64,000 nt of DNA from positions 124,001-188,000 of the forward strand of contig JAIUPQ010000007.1 of the NCBI GenBank assembly GCA_020161145.1, given 5' to 3'. Both the position numbers and the translations under genes were made by a program. This stretch comes from Pseudomonadota bacterium (GTDB taxonomy: Bacteria > Pseudomonadota > Gammaproteobacteria > Burkholderiales > Burkholderiaceae_C). The notes under the pieces are model-generated. The model did not search any database and was not told the DNA's origin. It saw only the letters and a list, made by a program, of their open reading frames with translations. Shown one piece after another: positions 28,658 through 34,443 of this stretch (position 1 is its first letter; each line of letters opens with the position of its first letter).

Positions 28658-29344
28658 TTGCCTGCGCCCACCACGACCATTCGTGTGATGATCGTCGAGG
28701 ACGACGCCATCACACGCCAACGTTTCGCCCATGCCATCGGCTCGGCGCCCGATTTGACGCTGGTTGCGGCGTTCGAGTCCGGCCGCGAAGCCCTGCGCTG
28801 GTTGGAGCGCGAGGGCGTCGACGTGCTGCTGACCGACCTGGGCCTGCCCGACGTGCCCGGTCTGGGCGTCATTGCCTATTGCGCCCAGCGTCACCCCGAC
28901 GCGCAAATCATGGTCATCACCATGTACGAGGACGAAACCCATGTGCTGCGCAGCCTGCAGGCGGGTGCGCGTGGCTATCTGCTCAAGGATGCGCTCAACG
29001 ATGAAATCGTTGCGCGCATCCACGAGCTGGCGGCGGGCGGCGCGCCCATGACGCCGCCCATCGCCCGGTTGGTGCTCAATCGGCTGTATCCGCGCCCGGC
29101 TGCCCCGGCGCCGACCTTGACGGCGGCCAGCTTCGACCCGCTGACCGAACGCGAACGCCAGGTGCTGACGCGCATTGCCCAGGGTTTCAGCTACGCCGAG
29201 ATTGCCGAGCTCGAAGGCATCTCACGCCACACCGTGCACACCCACATCAAAAGCATCTACGGCAAGCTGCAGGTGCATTCCAAGTCGGAGGCCGTGTTCG
29301 AGGCCGGCCGGCTGGGTCTGATCGACGTCACGCTGCGCGCGTGA
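28658..29344 (+). CDS. NarL/FixJ-family response regulator
   Basis: A 228-residue regulator starting at TTG, supported by AAGGAGG 6-7 bases upstream. Receiver domain: acidic pair D15-D16, phosphoacceptor D60 (LLTDLGLPD) and K110 (GYLLKDALND). The LuxR-type DNA-binding domain spans roughly 150-225 (LTERERQVLTRIAQGFSYAE, then ISRHTVHTHIKSIYGKLQVH). It is probably phosphorylated by the divergently encoded kinase. The 3' end overlaps the convergent DAHP synthase gene by 17 bases. Targets are unknown. Confidence 0.92.
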   Translation: MPAPTTTIRVMIVEDDAITRQRFAHAIGSAPDLTLVAAFESGREALRWLEREGVDVLLTDLGLPDVPGLGVIAYCAQRHPDAQIMVITMYEDETHVLRSLQAGARGYLLKDALNDEIVARIHELAAGGAPMTPPIARLVLNRLYPRPAAPAPTLTAASFDPLTERERQVLTRIAQGFSYAEIAELEGISRHTVHTHIKSIYGKLQVHSKSEAVFEAGRLGLIDVTLRA

Positions 29345-30446
29345 GCGCGCGGCGGTCGCGCACCGCCTGGGCCAGCCCGTCCAGCGCGGCCACCGTGTCT
29401 TCCCAGTCTATGCAGGCATCGGTGATGCTCTGACCGAAGTTCAGCGCGGCCGGATCGCTGCGCCCCGGTGTGAAGGCCTGGGCGCCCTCGTGCAGATGGC
29501 TCTCGATCATCAGACCGAAGACGGAGCGGCCACCCGCCGTCACCTGGCCGGCCACGTCGCGCGCCACATCCAGTTGCTTGCGGTGCTGCTTGGACGAGTT
29601 GGCATGGCTGCAATCGACCATCAGCGTGGGCGTCAACCCGGCTGCGGTCAGGGCCAGATGGGCGGCCTGCACGCTGGCCGCGTCATAGTTGGGCGCCTTG
29701 CCGCCGCGCAGAATCAGGTGGCAGTCGGCGTTGCCGCGCGTCTCCACGATGGCCACCTGGCCATTCTTGTGCACCGACAGAAAGTGGTGCGGCCGGGTGG
29801 CCGCCAGAATGGCGTCGGTGGCGATCTTGATGTTGCCGTCGGTGCCGTTCTTGAAGCCGATCGGGGCCGACAGCCCCGAGGCCAGTTCGCGGTGCACCTG
29901 GCTCTCGGTGGTGCGCGCGCCGATGGCGCCCCAGGCGATCAGATCGCCGATGTACTGCGGGCTGATGGTGTCGAGAAACTCGCTGCCCGCCGGCACACCC
30001 AGGCGGTTGATCTCCAGCAGCAGCTGGCGCGCCATGCGCAGGCCCTCGTCGATGCGGAAGCTGCCGTCCAGATAGGGGTCGTTGATCAAGCCTTTCCAGC
30101 CCACCGTGGTGCGCGGCTTCTCGAAGTAGACCCGCATCACCAGCTCCAGCTCGCCGCCCAGCCGGGTGCGTTGCTCGCGCAGGCGGCGGGCGTATTCGAG
30201 CGCAGCCTGCGGGTCGTGGATGGAGCACGGCCCCACCACCACCAGCAGCCGGTCGTCGCGGCCGTGCAGGATCTGTTGCACCGCACTGCGGGTGTGCTGC
30301 ACCAGCGTCTCCACCGGCGTGCCGTCGATGGGAAAGAAGCGGATCAGGTGCTCGGGCGGAGGCAACGGCGTCACCTGGGCGATGCGTGCATCGTCGGCAT
30401 CGCTGGTGCGGTCGTTGGGGCTGTGCAGCGTGGGCAAGGCGTTCAC
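29328..30446 (-). CDS. 3-deoxy-7-phosphoheptulonate (DAHP) synthase, class I AroF/G/H type
   Basis: A 372-residue enzyme joining phosphoenolpyruvate and erythrose 4-phosphate, the first step of aromatic amino-acid synthesis. It shows VVVGPCSIHD, YFEKPRTTVGWKGLINDPYL, GARTTESQVHRELASGLS and the metal-site DCSHANSSK. The GTG at 30446 (VNALPTLHS) is preferred over TTG at 30482 because GGAG lies 9 bases before it and the TTG would overlap the attenuator region. The Phe/Trp/Tyr class cannot be set from sequence alone. A leader peptide and terminator directly upstream point to attenuation. Confidence 0.95.
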   Translation of the reverse strand: MNALPTLHSPNDRTSDADDARIAQVTPLPPPEHLIRFFPIDGTPVETLVQHTRSAVQQILHGRDDRLLVVVGPCSIHDPQAALEYARRLREQRTRLGGELELVMRVYFEKPRTTVGWKGLINDPYLDGSFRIDEGLRMARQLLLEINRLGVPAGSEFLDTISPQYIGDLIAWGAIGARTTESQVHRELASGLSAPIGFKNGTDGNIKIATDAILAATRPHHFLSVHKNGQVAIVETRGNADCHLILRGGKAPNYDAASVQAAHLALTAAGLTPTLMVDCSHANSSKQHRKQLDVARDVAGQVTAGGRSVFGLMIESHLHEGAQAFTPGRSDPAALNFGQSITDACIDWEDTVAALDGLAQAVRDRRALTRAA

Positions 30447-30480
30447 GAGAGAGACTCCGGGTGAGGCGGACGCCAGCGGC

Positions 30481-30510
30481 AAACGAAAACCGCCGGCTGA
30501 TCCGGCGGTT
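30481..30510 (-). terminator. Attenuator terminator ahead of DAHP synthase
   Basis: On the minus strand, AACCGCCGG (30510-30502) and CCGGCGGTT (30496-30488) form a perfect 9-base stem with a 5-base loop, followed by a T-rich tail (TTCGTTT, giving TTTTCGTTT with the stem end). It sits 21 bases after the leader peptide stop and 41 bases before the DAHP synthase GTG, on the same strand, so it would end transcription before the gene. The 5' arm can instead pair with CTGGCGG (30564-30558) inside the leader frame, a possible antiterminator. Confidence 0.8.
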
Positions 30511-30531
30511 GCGAGGGGGTTGGGCCAGGCG

Positions 30532-30612
30532 TCAGACCTGCGCGCGCACCGTCCCGGCCGCCAGAGGCGAGGGCCAGAACCAGCAAAAAAATCGAGCGCG
30601 CAAGGTCAACAT
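30532..30612 (-). CDS. Phe/Trp-rich leader peptide for DAHP synthase attenuation
   Basis: A 26-codon frame, ATG at 30612 to TGA at 30534-30532, encodes MLTLRARFFCWFWPSPLA and then eight more residues. Five of six consecutive codons (8-13) are aromatic: Phe Phe Cys Trp Phe Trp. This is the layout of known attenuation leaders (trpL, pheL): a short peptide rich in the pathway's products, followed by alternative hairpins and a terminator. The ribosome site before the ATG is weak (GAGTGGGCC). A ribosome stalled at the Phe codons would leave CTGGCGG (30564-30558) free to pair with the terminator's 5' arm. I infer control by charged tRNA-Phe and possibly tRNA-Trp. Confidence 0.75.
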   Translation of the reverse strand: MLTLRARFFCWFWPSPLAAGTVRAQV

Positions 30613-30764
30613 GGGGCCCACTCTAGCATCTGCGCTGTGGCGCCAGGCCGACACCGGCCGCGCCTACCTGCCATGCACACTTTCTTACTCAAGCCAGCCG
30701 CTGCGGCTCCGACATCTCTGACTGAGGGTGCGTTGTGTGATGCCCTCGGGAGCAGGAGCCGATC

Positions 30765-32156
30765 ATGGGGCAGACCAACACACGCACGGGCCGAGGTGTG
30801 GCCATGCTGAATCTGGGCGTGTTGGGGGCTGTGCTGATGGCGGCCTGCGGTGGCGGGGGCGGCGCGGGGTCCGGGGACCCGCCGGTGGCCGTCACACCGC
30901 CGCCGCCAGCCTCTGCGCCGGGCACACCACCCGCCACGGGCGTGACCAATCCGCCGCCGCTGGACCATGGCCCCGACGCCTTTGAATTCCGTCCCTCCAC
31001 GGCCCTGGCCGCGCCGGGGGCGCTGGATGGCCTCTCCGATGGCCGGCGGCTGTTCGCCGCCTGGAACCCCACGTCGCAGACGGCGCTGGCGCCAGGCATG
31101 AAAGTGATGTTCTTCGGCAATGCCGAGGGCTGTGCCAGCGGCACCGAAGGCCCGTTGGCGGCGCCCCAGCCGGTGCGGCTGGCCGAGGTGCTGGCTGCCA
31201 TCGGCGTGGCCGGCACCGGGGTGACCGACGCGCTGCGCTGGTCGCCATCCGGCGCCGCCGCCGGTTGCAACCTGGCCACCCAGCACAAGCTGGGCGGCTC
31301 CTCGGTGCTGCTCAATGCCGACGACACCACGGGCGCCGTGGGCTTGCTCACCACCTCCGGCGTGCAGTCCGACGGCCAGCGCAGCTTCTTCGGCCCGCTG
31401 ACCGCGGCGGGTCAGAACGGCAGCGGCGCCAACGCCTACATCACCGGCAGCTTCGTGACCTTCCGCCAGGCCTGGACCAACGACCCCACGCCGCACAAGC
31501 CCTGGCAGGGCGGCGGTGCCGCGCGGTTGCAAAGCCGCCAGATCGTGGGCGTGGTGCGCGGCATCGATGCCGCCGCCAGCAGCACCCGCCAGGCCAAGCA
31601 GCAGCTGATCGCCACCTTCATCAACCCCACCTGCCGCGCCGAGCTGGCCACCCAGGGCAAGCTGTGCCAGATCCAGTACCTGTTCAACACCGCCATCTAC
31701 CGCTCGGGCGTCAGCGACTGGAGCCGTGAGACCTGGTTCAACAGCCCGCGTCTGCTCAACGACCCCGGCCAGGGCGGCATGCCCGTCTTCGGCGGCCCGG
31801 TGCCCGACGCCGGCACGCTGGCGACGGATGCCGCCAGCGGCCTGGCGCTTTACCGCTCGCAGGGGGAGCCCACCCAGCATGGGCGTTTTCTGGACAAAAC
31901 CTTCGATGTGACCATTGGCTTCGACCAACTGGGCAATGCGCTGCGGCTGGTGGTGGCCAACTTGCAGGCCTTGCCGCCCGCGCAGGTGACCGACGCCATG
32001 CTGGCCGCCCACTGGGGCAGCGCCTGGAGCCAGCCGGGCGCCTGGGTGCTGCTGTCGATCCAGCTGGGCCAGGAGGTCTACAACCCCGAGCCCGACCTGC
32101 GGGTGGAGATCGCTGGTGCGGCCCGCCATCTCTACGTGGGGCCACAGAACCCGTAG
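30765..32156 (+). CDS. Hypothetical proline-rich-linker lipoprotein
   Basis: A 463-residue frame from 30765, or 450 residues from the ATG at 30804 (MLNLGVLGAVLMAACGGGG), which gives a tighter lipoprotein signal with lipobox MAAC. A Pro/Ala/Gly-rich linker (about 35-70) leads into a domain of roughly 390 residues with several cysteines (EGCASG, AGCNLAT, NPTCRAEL, GKLCQIQYLF). I recognise no family. It is probably outer-membrane anchored. The gene is divergent from the DAHP synthase leader and followed 23 bases later by a hexapeptide-repeat gene. Confidence 0.75.
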   Translation: MGQTNTRTGRGVAMLNLGVLGAVLMAACGGGGGAGSGDPPVAVTPPPPASAPGTPPATGVTNPPPLDHGPDAFEFRPSTALAAPGALDGLSDGRRLFAAWNPTSQTALAPGMKVMFFGNAEGCASGTEGPLAAPQPVRLAEVLAAIGVAGTGVTDALRWSPSGAAAGCNLATQHKLGGSSVLLNADDTTGAVGLLTTSGVQSDGQRSFFGPLTAAGQNGSGANAYITGSFVTFRQAWTNDPTPHKPWQGGGAARLQSRQIVGVVRGIDAAASSTRQAKQQLIATFINPTCRAELATQGKLCQIQYLFNTAIYRSGVSDWSRETWFNSPRLLNDPGQGGMPVFGGPVPDAGTLATDAASGLALYRSQGEPTQHGRFLDKTFDVTIGFDQLGNALRLVVANLQALPPAQVTDAMLAAHWGSAWSQPGAWVLLSIQLGQEVYNPEPDLRVEIAGAARHLYVGPQNP

Positions 32157-32179
32157 CCGGCCCTCGGGATAATCGGCCC

Positions 32180-32971
32180 ATGCCGATCCAGACCCCGCAT
32201 CCGCTGATCACGCCGCTCATCCGCACCGTGCTGGACATGCCCGCCGCCCTGGTGCGGCATGCGCCGCAATCGGGCCAGCTCAAGCTGCACACCCTGTTGC
32301 TGCGCGACACGCCGCTGGCGCGCGAGGCCAAGGCCACCTTCGACGACAGCTGCACGTTGACCGTGGCCGAGGGCGAGGAGGCCACCATCCAGAACCTGCG
32401 CCTCATCACGCCGGGGCCGGTGCGCCCCTACAAAGGCATTGCGCTGGCGGTCTTCAGCAGCGCCGGGCAAATCGCCCTCACGCTGGGGGGCGACAACCTG
32501 CGACTCTTCGTGGGCCGGGGCTGCACCGTGCGGGCGCAGATTCAGCTGAGCCAGCAAGCCACCTGCTTCATCGGCGACGGCTGCACCATGGCCGGCGCGC
32601 GCATCGCCGTGGCCCACGGCGACTGTTCGTTCGGCGACGACTGCCTGCTGGCCGACGACGTGATGGTGCAGGCGCACGAGCTGCATCCGCTCTACGACAT
32701 GGCGGCCGGCGGCGCCATGCTCAACGGCGTGCGCCGTCGCCTCAAGGTGGGCCGCCATGTCTGGCTGGATGCCCGTGCCACGCTGCTGCCGGACACCCAG
32801 GTGGGCGACCACAGCTACGTGGCCGCCGGCAGCGTGGTCAGCGGCCGCCAGCCGGCCAACGCCTGGATTGCCGGCAACCCCGCCGGCGTGCTGCGCGAGG
32901 GCGTGGGCTGGGCGCGCGGCTTTGGCCAGCAGCCGCCACCGCCGGCGCAAGGGGTCGAGTTGCCGGATTGA
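32180..32971 (+). CDS. Hexapeptide-repeat (left-handed beta-helix) acyltransferase-like protein
   Basis: A 263-residue protein. The central part has imperfect hexapeptide repeats (ATCFIGDGCTMAGARIAVAH, then CSFGDDCLLADDVMVQAHEL), and the C-terminal VGRHVWLDARATLLPDTQVG and AGSVVSGRQPANAWIAGNPA match the LbH acyltransferase end found in maltose/galactoside acetyltransferase-like enzymes. His in AHELHP could be catalytic. The acceptor is unknown; polysaccharide modification is the usual role of such enzymes. Confidence 0.78.
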   Translation: MPIQTPHPLITPLIRTVLDMPAALVRHAPQSGQLKLHTLLLRDTPLAREAKATFDDSCTLTVAEGEEATIQNLRLITPGPVRPYKGIALAVFSSAGQIALTLGGDNLRLFVGRGCTVRAQIQLSQQATCFIGDGCTMAGARIAVAHGDCSFGDDCLLADDVMVQAHELHPLYDMAAGGAMLNGVRRRLKVGRHVWLDARATLLPDTQVGDHSYVAAGSVVSGRQPANAWIAGNPAGVLREGVGWARGFGQQPPPPAQGVELPD

Positions 32972-32982
32972 GCGGCGGCGCC

Positions 32983-34443
32983 CTAGCTGGTGCCGCCGAC
33001 GGTCAGGCCTTCGATGCGCAGCGTGGGCTGGCCCACGCCCACGGGCACGCTCTGACCCTCTTTGCCGCAGGTGCCCACGCCGCTGTCCAGCCGCAGGTCG
33101 CTGCCGATCTGGGTGATGCGGCGCATGGCTACCGGGCCGCTGCCAATCAGCGTGGCGCCCTTGACCGGGTACTGGATCTTGCCGTTCTCGACCCAGAACG
33201 CCTGCGAGGCCGAGAACACGAACTTGCCGTTGGTGATGTCCACCTGGCCGCCGCCGAAGTTGGTGGCGTAGAGGCCGCGCTTGAGGCCGGCCACGATCTC
33301 CTCGGGCGCCAGCCGGCCGGCCAGCATGTAGGTGTTGGTCATGCGCGGCATGGGCAGGTGGGCATAGCTCTCGCGCCGGCCGTTGCCCGTGGGCTTGACC
33401 CCCATCAGGCGGGCGTTGTGGCGGTCCTGGATGTAGCCGCGCAGCACGCCGTCCTCGATCAGCACATTGCGCTGCGTGGGCTGGCCCTCGTCATCCACGT
33501 TGAGCGAGCCGCGCCGGTCGGCCAGCGTGCCATCGTCCAGCACCGTCACGCCCTTGGCCGCCACGCGCTCGCCGATGCGCCCGGCAAACAGCGACGTGCC
33601 CTTGCGGTTGAAATCGCCCTCCAGCCCATGGCCCACCGCCTCGTGCAGCATCACGCCGGGCCAGCCGCTGCCCAGCACCACCGGCATCTGGCCGGCGGGC
33701 GCGGGGCGGGATTCGAGGTTGGTCAGCGCCGCCTGCACGGCCTCTTCCACATACTCGGCCACCTGGGCCTCGCTGAAATAGGCCAGGCCAAAACGCCCGC
33801 CACCGCCGCCATTGCCCACCTCGCGGCGGCCGTTCTGCTCGGCGATGACGGTGACCGACAGCCGTACCAGTGGCCGCACGTCGGCCGCGCGCGTGCCGTC
33901 GGCACGGGCGATCAACACCACGTCGTACTCGGCCGCCAGGCCCGCCATCACCTGCACCACGCGCGGATCGCGCGCGCGCGCCAGCCGCTCCACGCGCTCC
34001 AGCAGCGCCACCTTCTGCGTGCTGTCCAGCGTGGCAATGGGATCCATGGGCGCGTACAGCGCGTGGTTGGCCACCACCGGCTTGCGGGCCACCTTGATGC
34101 GCCGGCTCTGGCCTGCGGCGGCAATGCGGCGCACCGTGTGTGCGGCGTCCAGCAGCGCGCGGGCCGAGAGTTCGTCCGAGTAGGCGAACGCCGTCTTCTC
34201 GCCGGCCACGGCGCGCACGCCCACGCCCTGGTCAATGGAGAAGCTGCCGGCCTTGACCATGCCCTCCTCCAGACTCCAGCCCTCGTGGCGGGTGTACTGG
34301 AAGTACAGGTCGGCGTCATCGACCCGGTGCGCGGTGATGGCCCCCAGGGCCTCGCGCAGCGTGGCGTCGGTCAGGTCGTGGGGGGCAAGCAGCAGCGCCT
34401 CGGCCGTGGCCAGGCGCGCAAGAGCGGGTTCGCGGGCAATCAT
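32983..34443 (-). CDS. tldD: Metalloprotease TldD
   Basis: A 486-residue subunit of the TldD/TldE (PmbA) zinc protease, which degrades unfolded short peptides and processes some ribosomal peptides. The zinc motif HEAVGHGLEGD is intact, along with GSGWPGVMLHEA before it and GLKRGLYATNFGGGQVDITN toward the end. The start overlaps the rsmI stop (ATGA), so it is coupled to rsmI. The partner tldE is not in the window. Confidence 0.95.
   Translation of the reverse strand: MIAREPALARLATAEALLLAPHDLTDATLREALGAITAHRVDDADLYFQYTRHEGWSLEEGMVKAGSFSIDQGVGVRAVAGEKTAFAYSDELSARALLDAAHTVRRIAAAGQSRRIKVARKPVVANHALYAPMDPIATLDSTQKVALLERVERLARARDPRVVQVMAGLAAEYDVVLIARADGTRAADVRPLVRLSVTVIAEQNGRREVGNGGGGGRFGLAYFSEAQVAEYVEEAVQAALTNLESRPAPAGQMPVVLGSGWPGVMLHEAVGHGLEGDFNRKGTSLFAGRIGERVAAKGVTVLDDGTLADRRGSLNVDDEGQPTQRNVLIEDGVLRGYIQDRHNARLMGVKPTGNGRRESYAHLPMPRMTNTYMLAGRLAPEEIVAGLKRGLYATNFGGGQVDITNGKFVFSASQAFWVENGKIQYPVKGATLIGSGPVAMRRITQIGSDLRLDSGVGTCGKEGQSVPVGVGQPTLRIEGLTVGGTS

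Follow-up and report, generated by a model that had tools for sequence, protein, structure and literature searches.

The class I DAHP synthase gene in the window, the whole 64,000 nt stretch of DNA analyzed here, is preceded by a leader that very probably acts as a ribosome-mediated transcription attenuator sensing a shortage of aromatic aminoacyl-tRNAs. As this layout is common to many relatives, it looks like a real, conserved switch by which the enzyme would be made only when aromatic amino acids are short.

Architecture of the leader in the window

The leader and the enzyme gene are encoded on the minus strand and comprise the following features.

30620..30628, minus strand: extended −10-like box TGCTAGAGT of a putative promoter, ending 7 nt before the leader ATG
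30532..30612, minus strand: leader peptide ORF MLTLRARFFCWFWPSPLAAGTVRAQV, 26 codons; homologous leaders precede DAHP synthase
30574..30591, minus strand: control codons Phe-Phe-Cys-Trp-Phe-Trp, the counterpart of the congeners' run RFFFAYFWFS
30558..30565, minus strand: putative antiterminator 5′ strand TCTGGCGG, within the leader ORF, complementary to CCGCCGGA at the terminator 5′ arm
30502..30510, minus strand: terminator 5′ arm AACCGCCGG, which is also the antiterminator 3′ strand
30488..30510, minus strand: predicted intrinsic terminator hairpin of 9 bp with an interrupted T tract; covariation in relatives
30455..30458, minus strand: Shine-Dalgarno-like GGAG of DAHP synthase, 8 nt upstream of the GTG
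29328..30446, minus strand: class I DAHP synthase with a GTG start (Pfam PF00793, NCBIfam TIGR00034), the presumed regulated gene

The leader ORF starts with ATG at 30612-30610 and stops with TGA at 30534-30532. Its aromatic run, TTT TTT TGC TGG TTC TGG (30591-30574), has five aromatic codons in six, and the sequence confirmed the coordinates of the 26-codon frame that the first-pass annotation had placed before the enzyme gene. The 21 bases between the leader stop and the 9-base terminator (30531-30511) and the 41 bases from there to the enzyme's GTG (30446) were also as it had described, with a T tract that proved to be interrupted. The loop ATCAG separates AACCGCCGG (30510-30502) from the 3′ arm CCGGCGGTT (30496-30488), which is directly followed by TTCGTTTG. 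A terminator scan of 30300-30900 returned exactly one site, the 30510-30488 hairpin (shuffles 0.2, sd 0.5). The segment CTGGCGG, said to be able to pair with the terminator 5′ arm from inside the leader, was found at 30564-30558 and contains the core GGCGG at 30562-30558. The Phe codons had been placed at least 22 bases before CTGGCGG; from first base to first base, this holds for the first two (27 and 24 nt) but not for the third, TTC at 30579, which is 15 nt away, and the last Trp codon, TGG at 30576, is 12 nt away.

The product of 29328-30446 matched Pfam PF00793 (DAHP_synth_1) with an E value of 5.5e-93 and NCBIfam TIGR00034 (aroFGH) with 521.5 bits against a cut-off of 173.2, and a Phe-sensitive DAHP synthase is among its best solved relatives. 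Beyond the leader, two plus-strand ORFs (30765-32971) stand before tldD (32983-34443, minus strand). The first, 30765-32156, encodes 463 aa with a lipoprotein-like start and had no family match in Pfam, NCBIfam or PHROGs; the second is hexapeptide acyltransferase-like. If 30765-32156 is a gene, to which its lipoprotein-like start points, it is divergent from the leader, and therefore no neighbouring gene in the same direction can be ending at the terminator and the DAHP synthase promoter must lie in between.

Conservation and distribution of the leader

We compared DAHP synthase loci consisting of the best 80 of at least 590 from named genomes and 30 from 60 related whole genomes. Homologue upstream regions of at least 150 nt numbered 109, including the window and two duplicates (L064 and L113). 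Among the loci listed, a small ATG frame with at least six aromatic codons in eight was present in 83 of the 109 upstream regions; one such frame arose in 5,450 dinucleotide shuffles and none in the 109 reverse strands. The window leader scores five in eight, a value seen in 28 of the 5,450 shuffles (29 with five or more). The leader reads MTSRIAFYFYFWFSVPGGREASA in a Comamonadaceae MAG, MSAKFYFYFFWHLKPLADREG in Burkholderia and Caballeronia, MHSFIFFTGYFYFSDSNPKAVE in Rugamonas rubra, MNANRSFYFWYYGFPMPLAEEGVRSP in Xanthomonas bonasiae and MRASRFFFAYFWFSPRLAAGEANART in a congener of the window, and the peptide outside the aromatic run varies.

For further analyses we used 86 distinct leaders that bear the antiterminator core, leaving out L001 (the window locus itself), L047 (score 4), L018 and L075 (no core; L075 was dropped by hand) and the two duplicates. 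Phe codons occur in all 86, Tyr in 84, Trp in 70 and all three in 68, Tyr being absent only from the window leader and L097. The joint Phe/Trp sensor proposed in the first-pass annotation thus fits the window copy but is not the norm of the family. Phe is encoded by TTT more often in the leaders (251 TTT and 136 TTC; 251/387) than in the downstream DAHP synthase genes (101 TTT and 580 TTC; 101/681), and the TTT share of the leader exceeds that of its own gene in 82 of the 86 cases. This preference may tune the decoding speed or keep the RNA unstructured.

A sigma-70 consensus scan of the window leader region returned no promoter, and the −10 element came from the comparison. After L107 (overlong frame) and L074 (no upstream sequence) were left out of the 86, 58 of the remaining 84 leaders have an extended −10 sequence TGnTAnnnT, commonly GTGCTACATT, that ends 6-10 nt upstream of the ATG (0.57 in shuffles). 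A Shine-Dalgarno-like 4-mer accompanies 1 of the 84 leader ATGs versus 67 of 80 DAHP synthase genes, for which any in-frame ATG or GTG was allowed. Because the −10 element adjoins the ATG and Shine-Dalgarno sequences are almost absent, the leader mRNA is probably leaderless. In the copies of the Burkholderia and Oxalobacteraceae types, a TATAAA or TATAGT box was seen by eye further upstream, again without a Shine-Dalgarno sequence.

We searched genomes with R1, a covariance model built from 63 leaders. Full-length copies were found in 16 of 16 genomes of the window's genus, and all 36 family genomes carry one copy each, directly before the window-type DAHP synthase. At an E value of 1e-6, R1 matched 43 of 60 relatives, and all 43 matches lie directly before a DAHP synthase match when coordinates are compared by eye. 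In the order, 104 of 399 genomes from 14 families have a full-length match at E ≤2.4e-7, and the 30 loci fetched from this search all precede DAHP synthase. In a search of 369 genomes from the class, full-length matches at E <1e-12 occurred in four that lie outside the order, each before DAHP synthase; eight weaker class matches (E 4.1e-7 to 9.1e-6), of which L161 is full-length, were rejected as none is at a DAHP synthase gene. Three of the four belong to one order, in which 21 of 101 genomes have a full-length match at E ≤1e-8 and nine of nine newly fetched loci adjoin DAHP synthase; judging from the named locus L079, this order appears to include Xanthomonas. The aromatic run and hairpin, whose absence from orthologues had been named as the refutation of the first-pass reading, are accordingly conserved in many Burkholderiales and apparently in the Xanthomonas order.

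In an unrooted DAHP synthase tree of 84 rows, in which the long branches of L076 and L079 meet, the leader label changes 8 times versus 18 times when shuffled, with at least 6 changes required by well-supported branches. The leader thus tracks the enzyme lineage, and several changes look like losses, in Polynucleobacter, two Cupriavidus copies and Undibacterium. The Methylotenera, Thauera, Azoarcus and Rhodocyclus loci examined showed no leader of this type. Three DAHP synthase MAG records titled Planctomycetota, Gemmataceae and Anaerolineae (L044, L047 and L075) group with betaproteobacterial rows and are possibly mis-binned contigs. Neither the window nor 10 leader loci matched an Rfam 15 family at its gathering score; at E values up to 5 the only hit was sroD, with 24 bits against a cut-off of 50.

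With an R1 score of 61.9 bits, the window copy ranks below all others of the 36 family members (68.5-110.1 bits). It lacks Tyr and the conserved GAGAG element, its T tract is interrupted, and its DAHP synthase branch in the 84-row tree is 0.59 long versus 0.12 for the neighbour. Judged by its sequence, the window leader is a shortened relative of the congener form, without Tyr. As it retains the run, core, terminator and −10 box, we expect a functional copy that responds to Phe and Trp.

R1 had 13 other matches in the window's own genome at E values up to 1. The seven that were fetched (L115-L121) were rejected as DAHP synthase leaders since their loci contain no DAHP synthase; L120, a full-length match, overlaps a glutamine synthetase locus by eye and was dismissed as a chance match. 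Of twelve other places that were fetched, L198 and L199 are DAHP synthase loci and the remaining ten are not; L189, L191, L196 and L197 look like chance by eye. The second DAHP synthase gene of the genome (L002) has no aromatic leader: its best upstream frame contains two aromatic codons in eight, and the gene appears by eye to start a few bases after an upstream frame. As the L002 branch is abnormally long, its tree position was not used.

Other short frames were observed before genes other than DAHP synthase. Aromatic leaders with a terminator-like hairpin precede such genes in L193 (MITFSAVFNAYFYWYRSSRRLQGASLD) and L194 (MNTFSAVFNAYFYWYRSSRRLQGASLH). By eye, leucine-rich short frames and terminator-like hairpins are located before leuA-like genes in two Burkholderiales loci (L192 and L195), and the frame RSILVLVLITQ with a terminator-like hairpin before ilvC-like genes in two loci of the apparent Xanthomonas order (L188 and L190) is likely a branched-chain leader peptide. 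The trpE gene of the window's own genome (L200; contig C2 near 81.6 kb) is preceded by the ATG frame MFTAPAHRSQGQGAWPWRRGFTA with two Trp codons, a possible Trp-only leader; TACACT is located shortly before its ATG, no Shine-Dalgarno sequence is evident there, and no clear T-tailed terminator was seen.

RNA pairing and the proposed switch

A GGCGG segment (GGTGG once) follows the aromatic codons in 86 of 88 distinct leaders, where shuffles of rows chosen to contain this core predict about 8 of 86; it is absent from L018 and L075. Counted from the first base of the last aromatic codon, the core starts after 12-15 nt in 64 of the 86 (median 14, range 5-20). A distance of 12-15 nt is about the ribosome's reach ahead of its A site. 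The core is read in frame 0 in 36 leaders, in frame 2 in 48 and in frame 1 in two, giving residues such as PGG, LAA and LADR. As the core is kept in spite of the differing frames and residues, it is the RNA and not the peptide that is conserved, and the constraint is pairing. GGCGG is complementary to CCGCC in the 5′ arm of the terminator, which a script detected in 86 of 90 relatives. L059, L064 and L067, missed by the script owing to its T counting, have a terminator by eye, and in L075 none was seen either by script or by eye.

Covariation was examined in a MAFFT alignment (A1) of 63 of the 86 leaders remaining after removal of near-copies. In the terminator helix, 96.6% of cells are paired and 16 double changes were counted versus 2.8 in shuffles; five of the nine pairs are invariant and the innermost shows little or no covariation. 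A1 shifts the core by one column between groups, and antiterminator pairs were counted with a core-anchored script. In these rows, again chosen to contain the core, the flanking position −1 is paired in 49 of 63 leaders (shuffle mean 42.1; 0 of 1,000 shuffles as high), the next position is weaker (29 of 1,000 as high), and the outer positions −3 and −4 are near or within chance (36 and 196 of 1,000). The core itself is invariant, partly through this selection of rows, and therefore gives no covariation. Beyond the core, the arms formed more stable pairs with the spacer of their own leader than with spacers from other species (−7.6 versus −6.9 kcal/mol; permutation p 0.0005, kinship ignored) in a test of 86 rows that kept L004, L014 and L067 with a misassigned terminator arm.

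We then modeled the nascent RNA of the 86 leaders by folding with a simple ribosome footprint. With the first, middle or last aromatic codon placed in the A site, the antiterminator formed in 78, 85 and 45 of the 86, respectively, and in 31 without a ribosome; with the ribosome at the stop codon, the antiterminator core was still paired in 48. For the window, the antiterminator formed when any of codons 7-12 occupied the A site (−30.9 to −34.3 kcal/mol) but not with codons 13-16 there, and the folding of its leader RNA, suggested earlier as a check, thus indicates that a stall at codons 8-12 of the run, and not one at the last Trp (codon 13), would expose the antiterminator. Phe starvation, favored in the first-pass annotation as the antiterminating signal, is compatible with this model, but the inner Trp at codon 11 should work equally well. 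With the ribosome at the window's stop codon, the outcome flips with two bases of RNA length (with two more, the core is paired at −22.8 kcal/mol). When the RNA includes the 3′ arm, the predicted minimum contains the terminator in 79-85 of the 86 even with a stalled ribosome, so that only a kinetic switch would fit. Such a switch is supported by the model, but the state with the ribosome at the stop codon is not cleanly reproduced, which is the weakest part of the analysis.

The trp/phe-type attenuation layout put forward in the first-pass annotation is supported by the conservation of the leader, the overlapping antiterminator and terminator, and their placement before DAHP synthase. Transcription would start at or beside the leader ATG. 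When aromatic aminoacyl-tRNAs are plentiful, the ribosome would pass the aromatic codons and cover GGCGG, leaving CCGCC to pair with its own 3′ arm, and RNA polymerase would halt at the terminator. When charged tRNA-Phe or tRNA-Trp runs low (or tRNA-Tyr, in most relatives), the ribosome would stall within the run, and the freed segment, beginning 12-15 nt past the last aromatic codon, could pair with CCGCC before the 3′ arm is made. With the antiterminator formed, the terminator would fail and DAHP synthase would be transcribed.

The leader might instead serve mainly as a stable small RNA or a trans-acting peptide, like rnTrpL/peTrpL of Sinorhizobium meliloti, with attenuation being secondary or lost in this lineage, which we consider improbable. 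Its probable leaderless start and a terminator-ended short RNA would resemble rnTrpL as presented in the pertinent parts of PMC7298713, and the window copy is diverged with its DAHP synthase on a long branch. However, the variation of the peptide beyond the aromatic run speaks against such a role, and a core that is kept in varying frames at a fixed spacing and pairs with the terminator arm fits control in cis; a function in trans would add to attenuation and not replace it. That the small ORF and hairpin arose by chance in GC-rich intergenic DNA that contains an ordinary terminator is very hard to believe: GGCGG/CCGCC pairs are easily found at such GC content, the window region as a whole folds mildly better than shuffles (z −1.94) and 29 of 5,450 shuffles reach its run score, but the run, core, spacing and terminator are conserved in 14 families plus the apparent Xanthomonas order, and the criterion of six in eight gave 1/5,450 and 0/109 in the shuffle and reverse-strand controls. 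Equally implausible is that the hairpin is the 3′ terminator of the upstream gene and the ORF incidental, since, although tldD lies upstream on the same strand in at least 54 of 86 leader loci (a lower bound set by short flanks), within 200 nt of the leader in 36 and within 61 nt in 15, the neighbouring ORF in the window is on the opposite strand, the −10-like box ends 6-10 nt before the ATG in 58/84 and the terminator is located beyond the leader ORF.

With attenuation as the preferred reading, we give an even chance to a more specific proposal: in the Burkholderiales/Xanthomonas type, one leaderless leader is an OR gate in which a lack of any one of Phe, Tyr and Trp stalls the ribosome where the same antiterminator becomes free, and single lineages retune it by losing one amino acid, as Tyr in the window. 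If this is true, the enzyme at the entry to the shikimate pathway is switched on by an OR gate instead of the TyrR/TrpR and isozyme system that E. coli uses, and one RNA element would read charged tRNAs for up to three amino acids. This would offer a testable explanation of the way in which many beta- and some gammaproteobacteria match the flow into aromatic synthesis to demand. The element is short and has many natural variants in aromatic mix, spacing, frame and leaderless start, which suits tests of multivalent attenuation; it could be used to sense aromatic amino acids or be deleted from production strains, for example of Cupriavidus, and with R1 there is now a covariance model of an element that Rfam 15 missed in the loci tested.

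Comparison with known attenuators

The aroR-aroF attenuator of Corynebacterium glutamicum was reportedly described by Neshat et al. in 2014. As recounted in sections of PMC11802643 and PMC4046766, a Phe-Tyr-Phe leader precedes the DAHP synthase gene, and stalling under Phe limitation raises transcription, with no response to Tyr. The two systems are alike in anatomy, an aromatic leader peptide preceding DAHP synthase. C. glutamicum, of another phylum, is reported to have three aromatic residues whereas the leaders here have five to eight, with Trp in most, and the window leader contains no Tyr.

The E. coli pheL-pheA and trpL-trpE leaders each control one terminal branch in response to one amino acid and start with a Shine-Dalgarno sequence. 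Here, in contrast, the target is the first enzyme of the pathway, up to three amino acids are mixed, the start is probably leaderless and the antiterminator strand is inside the leader ORF. Several amino acids are sensed by one leader in enterobacterial ilvGMEDA and thr as well, but these are branched-chain amino acids or Thr/Ile and not aromatic ones. Control codons, alternative antiterminator and terminator structures and an intrinsic terminator are shared with the E. coli leaders as outlined in PMC11802643.

The uORFC-13-1 motif before Acholeplasma aroF likewise combines a candidate uORF with at least one Phe codon and a terminator before a DAHP synthase gene; the account in PMC8632094 gives 24 representatives, from Acholeplasma and unassigned environmental sequences, and is computational only. 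The same article cites a hypothesis for E. coli aroF, and attenuators were predicted upstream of the Vibrio aroA-tyrA operon, according to the relevant passage of PMC1173090. In S. meliloti, the transcript of trpL, a Trp leader preceding trpE(G), begins with the ATG of the leader ORF, as stated in the corresponding part of PMC7298713; a comparable leaderless start is probable here, to judge from the −10 spacing. We found no description of the element in Burkholderiales or Xanthomonadales in the open-access literature searched. Given the precedents in C. glutamicum, Acholeplasma, Vibrio and S. meliloti, this kind of attenuator is already known; what appears new is the variant, with three aromatic amino acids in one leader, a probable leaderless start, the antiterminator within the ORF and an occurrence in two orders.
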